In this document: positions 9,659-14,299 of the stretch, piece after piece | Layout: every line of letters begins with the position of its first letter | How positions within the stretch are numbered: position 1 is the first letter of the stretch | NCBI GenBank assembly: GCA_024280895.1 | Contig: JAJRPI010000032.1 | Coordinates: 1-64,000 of the forward strand | Direction: 5' to 3' | DNA: 64,000 nt | Source of the DNA: Alphaproteobacteria bacterium | GTDB lineage: Bacteria; Pseudomonadota; Alphaproteobacteria; Rhizobiales; JAKIUO01 | Program-made: the position numbers and the translations under genes | Notes under the pieces: generated by a model | The model's database searches: none | Seen by the model: the letters and a program-made list of their open reading frames with translations, nothing else | What the model was told of the DNA's origin: nothing

Positions 9659-9856
9659 CTGCTATAGTGGCTTTTAATATTTTATTAATTTTGACATTGA
9701 TTATATTTTTGTTTTTTGAGTATGTAACAGTTTCTGGTCGGATCAATTTCCGTATTGCGGTTTTAATGTAGAACGTGGAAAACACCCTAAACCATTGACT
9801 ATTAACCATAAGTCTGTTTAGCTTTGGTTCGAAAACAGGTGGGAAGGCAGTTTAAA

Positions 9857-10366
9857 TTGAGTGAAAAAACCCTAACAAGAGCTGACTTGGTCGAAGCCGT
9901 CGTTTTAAAGGTGGGATTACCAAGGCACGAGGCTGCAGAACTGGTTGAAACCGTCCTGCAAGAACTTTCTTCGACATTGGCGCGAGGAGAGCAGGTCAAA
10001 CTGTCTTCGTTTGGCAGTTTTGGCATTCGTGAAAAGCGTCAGCGGATTGGTCGCAATCCCAAGACTGGGAAAGAAGTGCCCATTACGCCGCGCCGTGTTC
10101 TGGTCTTTCGGGCCAGTAACATCATGAAAAAACGCATTGATGAGACCATTAAGGCTGATCGTGCCAAGGCCAGTGGGGCAAGCAAGGTTAAACCCAAGCC
10201 CAAGCCCAAGCCCAAGCCCAAGCCGAAGGTAGCAAGTAAGCCCAAAACAGCGACCAAAGCTGCAAGCAAGGCAAACGGCAAGGCCAAAAGTCCAGCCAAG
10301 AAGGCCACAAGTCGCGCCAAGCCCAAAAAGAAGACAACAAGCAGCACCAAACCAACCGGCAAATAA
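9857..10366 (+). CDS. ihfA: integration host factor alpha with H1-like C-terminal tail
   Basis: The first 95 residues are canonical IHF-alpha/[22 protein letters not shown], the DNA-binding arm [20 protein letters not shown] and [10 protein letters not shown]. They are followed by about 75 residues rich in Lys, Ala and Pro, including six KP dipeptides and several AKKA/SKAN units, like linker histone H1. Usual IHF-alpha is about 100 residues. I favour the TTG at 9857 (GGAAGG upstream); an earlier TTG at 9824 keeps the same frame. IHF bends DNA as a heterodimer with IhfB. The tail probably adds non-specific DNA affinity (inference). Confidence 0.88.
10190..10228. repeat. hexanucleotide AAGCCC tandem repeat inside ihfA
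   Basis: Six near-perfect AARCCC units encode the (Lys-Pro)6 stretch. Such a run can change length by replication slippage without shifting the frame. Confidence 0.85.
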
Positions 10367-11024: not shown

Positions 11025-11037
11025 ATGTGAGCCTGTG

Positions 11038-11910
11038 ATGAACCCATATTTGCTAAAATTACTGAAACTGTATTTTATGACGATCGGACGGGTCATGCCT
11101 GCGGCTGCCACTGGGCTGGCGGACAAGCTGTTTACGTCTGTGCCGTTTTCAAAGCGCCGGGACAGTGAAGAAGCGCTACTGGCAAGGGCCGAGAAATTCA
11201 CCGTCAGCATGGAAAATGGACATGAGCTGGCCGCCTACCGATGGGGCAAGAAATCGGATCCGATTATCTTGTTTGTGCATGGCTGGACGGCGACGGCGAC
11301 GTGTTTCTCGCATTTTATCACGCATTTTCTCGATGAGGGGTATCAGGTCATCTCCTATGATGCCATTGGGCATGGTGCCTCTACGGGATCACGCACCACT
11401 GTACCTGATTGGGCCGATTCTATTCATGCGGTCAGTCAAGAGGTGGGGCCCGTACGCTGCATGATTGGTCATTCCATGGGGGGGATGGCGCTGATCATGG
11501 CCTCCAATATTGGTCTGCAAACACAAAAACTTGTGTTGTTATCGCCGGCCACAAGCATCAGTAAATTTTTCTACCACTTTGCAGCCAGCTTGTCCTTTCC
11601 GCCAAATATGCGCGAAAGTTTCCCGCGCTTTATCTGGGAAAAATACGGTCCGATCGCTGCCAAATATGGGAGGGACTGGGAACAGGTGATGATTTCTGAT
11701 TTCAAAGTGCCAAGCCTCATTATTCATGACCAAGATGACAAGGAAGTGGATATTGAGCGTTCTCGCTGGTTGGCGGCACAATGGCCGTGGGCGGAATTGG
11801 TGGAAACTAACCGCCTTGGTCACCGAAGAATTTTGCTGAGCAAGAAAATCGTTGCCCTCGTCAGTGAGTTTGTCGCAAAAACAGATGTAAAAGCGCGGGC
11901 TAATCTTTAG
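11038..11910 (+). CDS. alpha/beta-hydrolase
   Basis: The 290-residue protein has the alpha/beta-hydrolase signatures: an oxyanion HGW motif (residues 81-83), nucleophile Ser146 in GHSMGG, an acid at about 233-234 (HDQDDKE) and His262 (LGHRRI). The substrate is unknown; it could be an esterase or lipase-like enzyme. It is divergent from an HxlR regulator and probably controlled by it through the shared inverted repeat. Its TAG stop (11908-11910) lies inside the left end of the inverted-repeat element that follows, so the C-terminus may have been altered by insertion. Confidence 0.85.
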   Translation: MNPYLLKLLKLYFMTIGRVMPAAATGLADKLFTSVPFSKRRDSEEALLARAEKFTVSMENGHELAAYRWGKKSDPIILFVHGWTATATCFSHFITHFLDEGYQVISYDAIGHGASTGSRTTVPDWADSIHAVSQEVGPVRCMIGHSMGGMALIMASNIGLQTQKLVLLSPATSISKFFYHFAASLSFPPNMRESFPRFIWEKYGPIAAKYGRDWEQVMISDFKVPSLIIHDQDDKEVDIERSRWLAAQWPWAELVETNRLGHRRILLSKKIVALVSEFVAKTDVKARANL

Positions 11911-12176
11911 GGTCAGGACCCATTAATTATACCAATTCTGTTGGATCAGGAGGGTTTGAATAGGGGTAAAACAGCGCAAGAACAGGCCTCTTGCCTTTTC
12001 GAGCATGTTTTGGCCTTAGGCGAGCCCTCCTGATCCAACCCCTAGGGCTTTGCAGTTCAGGCCCCCGAATGCGTTAGAAAAACTTGAAAGTCAGGGAGAC
12101 TTCCTACGTTTTCCTGCCTGTTCAGGAACCAGAACTGTAAAGCAGAACTGGCATAATTAATAGGTCCTGACCCTAA
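11907..12176. mobile_element. 270-bp MITE-like element between two convergent genes
   Basis: The ends are 24-bp inverted repeats (11907-11930 and 12153-12176) that differ at one position and begin TTAGGGTCAGGACC. Inside lie further inverted pairs, for example GTTGGATCAGGAGGG (11940-11954) against CCCTCCTGATCCAAC (12028-12042). There is no open frame. TA at both outer ends fits a TA target duplication as made by IS630/mariner-type transposases. The TAG stops of both flanking convergent genes are formed at the element ends. Confidence 0.75.
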
Positions 12177-14299
12177 GCACTCTCGGCCAGCAGGCATTTG
12201 AGGACACCGATTTCATAGCGTCCACCAAGCGCTTCAAAGGCTGGTTCGAGCTTGCCTTCTTCAAGAGTATTGGTGTATTCAAAGGCTGCAAGGATTTCGT
12301 CTTGCTCTGGCTGAGCGAGGGATAAAACATCGCCAGCACCGACAATGCCAGCCTCAATCCCTTGCGCAAAATGCTCATAGACAGTTGACAGATTAAGAGC
12401 GCGTGCTTTGGCAATATCGACGGCGGCGACCCCTTGCAGATGCAGGCCAAGGGTCTCGTTGATCTGGTCGCCAAGCGTGTTATTGAGGCGCTGATCAAAC
12501 GGCGTTGTATCGATCACTTTCATAAATTTGCGGCCATAGCGTTTTAGCTTGCTATCACCAACCCCTGAGACCATCAAAAAGTATTCGTCGTTAAGGGGAC
12601 GTTTTTGCGCCATTTCCTGCAAGCTTGCATCTGAGAAAATAACATAGGGAGGCACCCCTTGTTTTTTGGCAAGCTTTGTACGCAAGGCGCGCAAAGCTTC
12701 GGCAAGCGCGCGCGAGGCAAATGGCACGGTGTCCCATGTTTTGCGCGTCCGTGATGCTTTTTTCCTGGCGGCGGGTTTGATCTGTTTGCGCAGCGAGAAT
12801 TCCTGCTCGCCTTTTAAATAAGGTTTGGCCTTGTCGGTGAGTTTGAGTGAGCCATATTGCTCTTGATCGGCATATAGGCAGCCCTTGGCAATGAGCTGGC
12901 GGAAGATGGCGCGCCATTCCACCATCGAGAGATCTTTGCCAATACCAAAGGTGCTTTGGCGGTCATGGCCAAATTGCAATATCCGGTCTGTTTCCTTGCC
13001 GCGCAAAACATCAATCAGATAGTTGACGCCAAATCGTTGCTCGGTGCGATAAGCGCAGGACAGTGCTTTTTGCGCATCGACACGAGCGTCTCTGGTCTCG
13101 GGGGGATTGAGGCAATTATCACAATTGCCGCAAGGTTCTGGCATGTCTTCATCGAAATAGGCAAGGATTTCACGGCGACGACAATCGGTCATTTCGCAAA
13201 GGCCGAGCATGGCGTTTAATTTGTCGTGCAGCACGGTTTTTTGGGTGTCGCTGGCATCACCGCTATCGGTCATCTGGCGTAGCATGATGACGTCTTGCAA
13301 GCCATAGGACATCCAGGCATTGGCGGGTTCGCCATCGCGCCCGGCGCGCCCCGTTTCCTGATAATAGGCTTCGACATTTTTGGGCAGATTAAGATGGGCC
13401 ACAAAGCGCACATCAGGCTTGTCGATGCCCATCCCGAACGCAATCGTGGCGACAATAATGATGCCTTCTTCGTGCAGGAAACGTTTTTGGTTGGTGGCGC
13501 GCTCAATGATGGGTAGACCGGCATGATAGGCTAGGGCGGTGCGCCCTTTTGAGCGCAGCCAGCTGGCGGTTTCCTCGGTTTTTTTACGCGACAGGCAATA
13601 GATGATGCCAGCGTCTGCGGGGTGTTCATTTTCCAAAAAGCGCCAGAGATGATCGCGGCCACCACCGCCCTCATTGATCGTGTAGCGAATATTGGGCCGA
13701 TCAAAACTGGCGACAAACTGCTCTGCATCCCCAAGATCAAGCTCGCTGGTGATCTCGTCCCTGGTGCGCTTGTCGGCGGTTGCGGTGAGAGCAATGCGCG
13801 GTACATTTGGAAAGCGCTCGTGCAGCAGGCGCAACTGGCGGTATTCAGGCCGGAAATCATGCCCCCACTGGGACACACAATGAGCTTCATCAATAGCGAA
13901 TAATGAAATTTTAGAGCGCTCCAGCAAGCGCAACATGCCCATGGCAACCAGGCGTTCGGGGGCGACATAAAGAAGATCGAGCTCACCAGATGTCAGATCG
14001 TTTTCGGTTTGCTGGCGCTCATGGGGGGTGAGCGTGGAGTTTAAAAAGGCCGCCTTGATGCCCAGCAGCTTGAGGGCGTCCACCTGATCTTGCATGAGGG
14101 CGATAAGAGGTGACACGACAATCGCCACGCCATCACGTACCAATGCGGGGATCTGATAGCAAAGCGATTTGCCGCCCCCCGTTGGCATCAAGGCCATAAC
14201 ATCTCGGCCCTCAACAAGCGCTTCAATGATTTGCGCTTGTTCCAGCCGAAAGCTTTTGTAGCCAAAGATCTTTTCAAGTATTTCCTGCGCCCGCTGCAT
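12173..14299 (-). CDS. recQ: ATP-dependent DNA helicase RecQ
   Basis: The 708-residue protein shows Walker A TGGGKS (residues 40-45), the DEAH box (137-140) with [13 protein letters not shown], helicase motifs [12 protein letters not shown], the RQC zinc cluster ([20 protein letters not shown] then CDNC) and an HRDC domain (about residues 515-595). RecQ unwinds recombination and replication intermediates. At 708 residues it is longer than the usual ~610; the extra ~100 residues after HRDC look like a helical winged-helix-like tail (IDKAR-type helices ending LLAESA). The stop codon is supplied by the adjacent inverted-repeat element. Confidence 0.95.

Follow-up and report, generated by a model that had tools for sequence, protein, structure and literature searches.

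The alpha/beta-hydrolase gene and the recQ helicase gene studied here converge, and all of the sequence that separates them is a single palindromic element, which contributes the last base of both stop codons. What is this element, how did it come to lie there, and what did its arrival do to the two proteins? The region was analysed within a 64,000-nucleotide stretch of alphaproteobacterial DNA, called the window below, and its features are collected in Table 1. An earlier note, made from the sequence alone, had read both TAG stops (hydrolase, 11908-11910; recQ, 12175-12173) as a TA followed by the first G of the element, and this is what is found. The gene-less element is flanked on each side by a TA direct repeat. 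Its inverted ends, which had been given as 24 bp, are real but longer: the arms at 11907-11940 and 12143-12176 are 34 nt each and 91% complementary. The nested inner palindromes that had been noticed correspond to two large inner hairpins, the pair 11940-11973/12006-12039 being 79% complementary, and the claimed lack of coding capacity holds, with no ORF of at least 80 aa inside the element. The predicted fold has an energy of -140.1 kcal/mol, against -78.5 +/- 5.2 for shuffled sequences (z = -11.9), and the 13-bp end, searched with zero mismatches in the 64-kb window, is present only at the two ends of the element. The window element is a genuine repeat element, far above chance. Upstream of the hydrolase, at 9824-10366 (+), lies an IHF/HU-like DNA-binding gene; judged by eye, its translation resembles an integration host factor subunit and carries a long C-terminal tail rich in lysine, proline and alanine.

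Table 1. Coordinates, in the window, of the element and of the two genes that it joins
Feature	Position	Strand	Remark
alpha/beta-hydrolase gene	11035..11910	+	TAG stop formed by the target TA and the element's first G
TA target-site duplication, left copy	11908..11909		reconstructed target TTAA, consensus YTAR
MITE (non-autonomous), 264 bp, IS427-type ends	11910..12173		
left terminal inverted repeat	11910..11940	+	pairs with 12143-12173
hairpin arm 1, ~100 nt	11940..12039		inner motif GCGCAAG...CGAGC
short linker hairpin (CCCCTAGGGC)	12038..12048		
hairpin arm 2, ~90 nt	12048..12142		inner motif CTTGAAA...TTCCTRCG
right terminal inverted repeat	12143..12173	-	
TA target-site duplication, right copy	12174..12175		part of the recQ TAG stop
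recQ helicase gene (TIGR01389)	12173..14299	-	ends LLAESA-TAG at the element

Searching the window's own genome (G000) for further copies of the ends, as the earlier note had proposed, gave a second full copy, 96% identical (G000:C22:5216-5484), a copy reduced to about 63 bp (C66, L019:about 1501-1563), and short end-like palindromes at C36 and C49. Two of four congeneric genomes (G001-G004) contain related copies, 81% identical in G002 and partial in G001. Miniature palindromes were also seen in G002 (L029:1486-1524 and L030:1466-1533); together with L019 they span 39-68 bp, hardly beyond two joined ends, and are probably deletion products of the large element.

The same ends are found well outside this genus. 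A match to the element was present in 20 of 150 genomes of the order, and an exact search for TAGGGTCAGGACYYATTAAT returned at least 120 stretches; among the matches listed are Rhodospirillales, Hyphomicrobiales, Rhodobacterales, Sphingomonadales and others, nearly all of them Alphaproteobacteria as judged from record titles. In a class-wide sample, 16 of 385 genomes had the end pattern and none had the reversed control pattern. About 70 elements are delimited by these ends, and the spacing of the end pairs shows a sharp mode at 265-270 bp and a separate class at 830-849 bp. Plasmid and phage collections gave no match by blastn with the element. The exact end pattern was found in five viral contigs, one of them with a full-length pair: this IMG/VR contig (L315:8315-8584) carries a family element on the stop of a 138-codon ORF, and is a possible vehicle between hosts. 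That the window element belongs to a widespread MITE family with IS427-type ends is well supported.

The 830-849 bp class points to the mobilising system. Most of its members contain two ORFs matching DUF4096, DDE_Tnp_1 and NF033580 (an NCBIfam IS5-family model), and a two-ORF transposase layout is that of the IS427 group (PMC3281130). In the congener G004, an IS with the same ends is present (L247:1483-2594), with a transposase 65% identical; at 1,112 bp it exceeds the usual ~845 bp, its first transposase ORF being broken by about 265 added bases without the family end motif. In the genome of the window itself, IS427-like genes are limited to a pseudogene, one end of which has decayed, and a distant relative. 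In Inquilinus limosus (L064:2226-3066), family ends 841 bp apart enclose an ORF that is not a transposase, possibly a passenger gene, or else the ends may be paired by chance.

TA flanks both sides in 56 of the 71 elements, the rest having one end altered. When the element and one TA were removed in silico from the copies with both TA intact, the target was YTAR in 54 of the 56 sites, and no wider motif was seen around these 56 insertion sites. IS711 of Brucella, an 842-bp two-ORF IS, likewise targets YTAR and duplicates TA (PMC2266754, PMC3163539). By its sequence features, namely terminal inverted repeats, several copies, a target-site duplication and no transposase, the element is a MITE. 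Autonomous elements with the same ends encode a two-ORF, IS5-type transposase, and TA is duplicated at YTAR, as in the IS427 group; transposases of this type probably move the element. The earlier note had proposed insertion at a TA, which is borne out by the TA on both sides and by empty sites in congeners, and had suspected IS630/mariner ends. A TA duplication and a MITE-sized element would suit an IS630/Tc1-mariner MITE, and TA termini are likewise known from Correia, ERIC and RUP elements (PMC2229807). However, the transposases encoded between these ends are IS5-family DUF4096/DDE_Tnp_1 proteins of the IS427 group, and the target is YTAR, as in IS711, so that we regard an IS630/Tc1-mariner assignment as extremely improbable.

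What, then, did the insertion do to the two genes? Removal of the element and one TA in silico leaves ...AAT CTT TAA GC..., in which TTAA forms overlapping TAA stops, one for the hydrolase and one for recQ on the opposite strand. Compared with this reconstructed site, the insertion changed TAA into TAG on both strands, with zero residues lost. On this reading, neither protein was altered, because a YTAR target reads TAR on either strand and the first base of the element is G. The recQ/hydrolase site without the element, itself a reconstruction, is predicted to occur as CTTTAAGC, with the same last codons in both genes. A transposase of the IS427 type, acting in trans, would have inserted the MITE into the TA of TTAA and duplicated this TA; TA+A would then have become TA+G on both strands, hydrolase and recQ keeping their last codons. 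Which transposase moved the window copy is a step that we infer.

The alternative, put forward in the earlier note, is that the insertion truncated both genes, replacing their native C-termini and supplying new stop codons. That both stops use the first G of the element agrees with this, but a YTAR target already holds a TAA or TAG on each strand, and relatives lacking the element speak against it. Without an element at that place, recQ ends LLAESA* in G003 and LLAENA* in G001, at the same last codon as in the window, and the G001 sequence aligns across the insertion point. The hydrolase end differs by a few residues among relatives, and the one-base difference from G001 is upstream of the insertion. 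In the hydrolase-recQ gap of G003 (L207), about 300 other bases are found, including ATTTTAATGGGTCCAGGTCC, which resembles a decayed element end. The clearest evidence for unchanged protein ends is the site of the second copy, which lies 3' of a nitroreductase-like gene and upstream of tsaB (names given by eye from translations). This site is empty in G002, G003 and G004, where the last codon is unchanged and is followed by a native TAA or TAG; the distance to the start of tsaB in G003 is the same as in the site reconstructed without the element. Identical last codons in element-free relatives are what the earlier note had itself named as refuting; its claim that the C-termini were replaced is accordingly refuted, and a truncation of both genes is very improbable. 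Of the earlier interpretation there remain the insertion at TA, the other copies, and the last G of both stops; the replaced C-termini, the IS630/mariner assignment and, as detailed below, the terminator do not.

Placement on a stop codon is a recurrent property of the family. Among 61 loci with enough flank, found via intact ends and with genes called by a simple ORF-length rule, the element coincides exactly with the stop codon of a called gene in 27, against 51-61 of 1,094 control YTAR sites from the same loci (~5%; the range depends on the ORF cut-off), the copies not being fully independent. The odds ratio is 13-16 against all controls, and about 5-6 against the non-coding control sites only. 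Double convergent stops are occupied by 6 of the 61 elements and by 0-1 of the 1,094 controls; of the 10 proteins that flank the five double-stop cases besides the window, 9 match Pfam (nitronate monooxygenase, MgsA/RarA, TauE and MurJ, for example). Of the 17-19 elements found in convergent gaps, 16 coincide exactly with a stop; some elements lie between divergent genes. These figures concern the elements, full IS copies with flanks being too few for the same comparison. The stop-codon bias is a strong count, pending a check in annotated genomes.

Silence alone would put stops on a par with neutral intergenic sites, so a further cause is needed for their excess. We favour survival: stop sites would be over-represented since insertion there is silent, and since the coding sequence flanking one or both sides would block later sloppy deletion. 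Targeting at the time of insertion, or selection on transcripts, are the alternatives. We found no report in the open-access literature of recurrent placement exactly on stop codons in small elements; the repeat may have been described in a subscription journal. The excess at stop codons and the DNA-type covariation described below look new.

Aligning all 46 divergent elements together gave too much noise for a structure, and the fold was examined instead in three similarity groups, with 18, 14 and 10 members and a mean identity of 63-66%. All three have a common fold, consisting of a closed stem and two arms, arm 1 and arm 2, with a linker hairpin between them. Of the 1,779 cells of the group of 18, 92.7% are paired, and two-sided change is seen in 74 of 99 pairs; compensated cells number 276, versus 78 +/- 6 when shuffled and 35-53 when slid. 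The architecture held by covariation measures 268 bp.

Strong covariation is usually taken as evidence of a structured RNA; here, it comes with strand-symmetric mismatches pointing to DNA pairing. In real RNA helices, G-U is commoner than A-C. The ratio of G-U to A-C mismatches in the arms was 91:97, versus 100:19 for RNase P from the same order in the same pipeline (p = 2e-10); a small tRNA control gave 10 G-U to 1 A-C. The arms, that is, do not tolerate G-U above A-C in their helices. With the arms read in the direction of the stopped gene, the ratio was 30:40, and this lack of a wobble excess speaks against the structure being an mRNA 3' element. Equal G-U and A-C imply that pairing is maintained in the DNA, or to the same degree on the two strands. 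The mismatch pattern points to DNA pairing rather than RNA.

These counts bear directly on the idea that the element is kept for a function in RNA, either as a two-way terminator, the role suggested for it in the earlier note, or as a 3' hairpin that protects the genes to which it supplies stop codons. Its location at 3' ends, often between convergent genes and there nearly always exactly at the stop (the 16 of 17-19 cases above), and its very stable fold are what this would lead one to expect. Against it stand the equal frequency of G-U and A-C, whether counted in element orientation or in gene direction, the orientation of the element relative to the stopped gene, which is random (13:12), and the elements found between divergent genes. 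Furthermore, the 700-bp region has 0 terminator-like sites on the + strand and 3 on the - strand, where 0.9 are expected, so that a two-way terminator finds no positive support. An Rfam search of the region gave only two chance-level matches, far below the cut-off. A role at the RNA level is in our view unlikely.

Between copies of 95% identity or more, 81 single-side changes within pairs were counted versus 2 double changes, and 173 versus 17 between 90 and 95%. Such near-one-sided changes imply that resident copies decay, and that pairing is more likely kept in lineages still moving. From the mismatch symmetry and the covariation, we hypothesise that propagation would require the conserved multi-arm self-pairing in the form of a DNA fold, either a hairpin or a cruciform. 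The arms might instead covary without selection, if template switching during replication recopies one arm of a palindrome onto the other, a process that can create and maintain hairpin pairing (PMC8794818) and with which strand-symmetric mismatches fit. But the excess of single over double changes argues for slow correction in resident copies, and three divergent groups have in common the overall length and a similar placement of internal loops; the internal loops themselves are only about as conserved as the stems. We consider unselected covariation by template switching somewhat unlikely.

Returning to the window copy, the steps supported by the data are the TA duplication at YTAR, the family shared with autonomous partners, and the unchanged ends in relatives. 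Taken as a whole, with the inferred survival and DNA-folding steps included, we are confident that it is a MITE with IS427-group ends, moved in trans into the shared TTAA stops and silent for both proteins. A broader proposal can be made only tentatively: that this is an old family of IS427-end MITEs which would propagate via folded DNA of fixed size (a closed stem and two bulged arms), maintained by compensatory changes along most of the element, and would survive mainly on stop codons, shared convergent stops included, where insertion is silent and deletion constrained. With TAR on both strands of YTAR and a leading G, a mobile element can enter two genes at once and alter neither protein. 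Stop codons, above all overlapping convergent stops, are safe harbours for such an element, and their excess can be tested in annotated genomes. The G-U versus A-C count, with RNase P as control, is a simple check usable in RNA-discovery pipelines.

Among known systems, integron attC sites act as folded single-stranded DNA in which pairing, not sequence, is conserved, and are recombined by a tyrosine integrase; they offer an analogy for the DNA-folding idea only. The IS5-family, IS427-group IS (ISPaes, ISPze and others of Paracoccus) share with the element the TA duplication and the YTAR target also used by IS711. The same-end partner elements of this type are ~840 bp long, with two overlapping transposase ORFs and 20-bp ends identical to those of the element, whereas the window element has no transposase and only the ends (~20 bp) in common with them. 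IS711/IS6501 of Brucella is similar to these partners in layout and target, and the palindromic intergenic repeats Bru-RS1 and Bru-RS2 of Brucella have been tied to IS711 (PMC3163539, PMC2266754). By its description, however, Bru-RS1 is a 103-bp insertion target of IS711, which sets the element apart from it. The CIR repeats of Caulobacter and Brucella are likewise alphaproteobacterial and made of two arms and a linker (PMC2229807), but they are ~110 bp long, with unpaired ends and a conserved GANTC in the loop, where the element has paired ends and 268 bp. Identity with CIR was rejected, as GANTC is absent from 35 of 60 elements, including the window copy. Finally, Correia/NEMIS, ERIC, RUP and the Coxiella QMITE are likewise small non-autonomous elements with terminal inverted repeats and stable stem-loops, and QMITE2 has been reported at the 3' end of one gene (PMC5896051); all of these are shorter than the element described here, which differs from them also by its IS427 ends.
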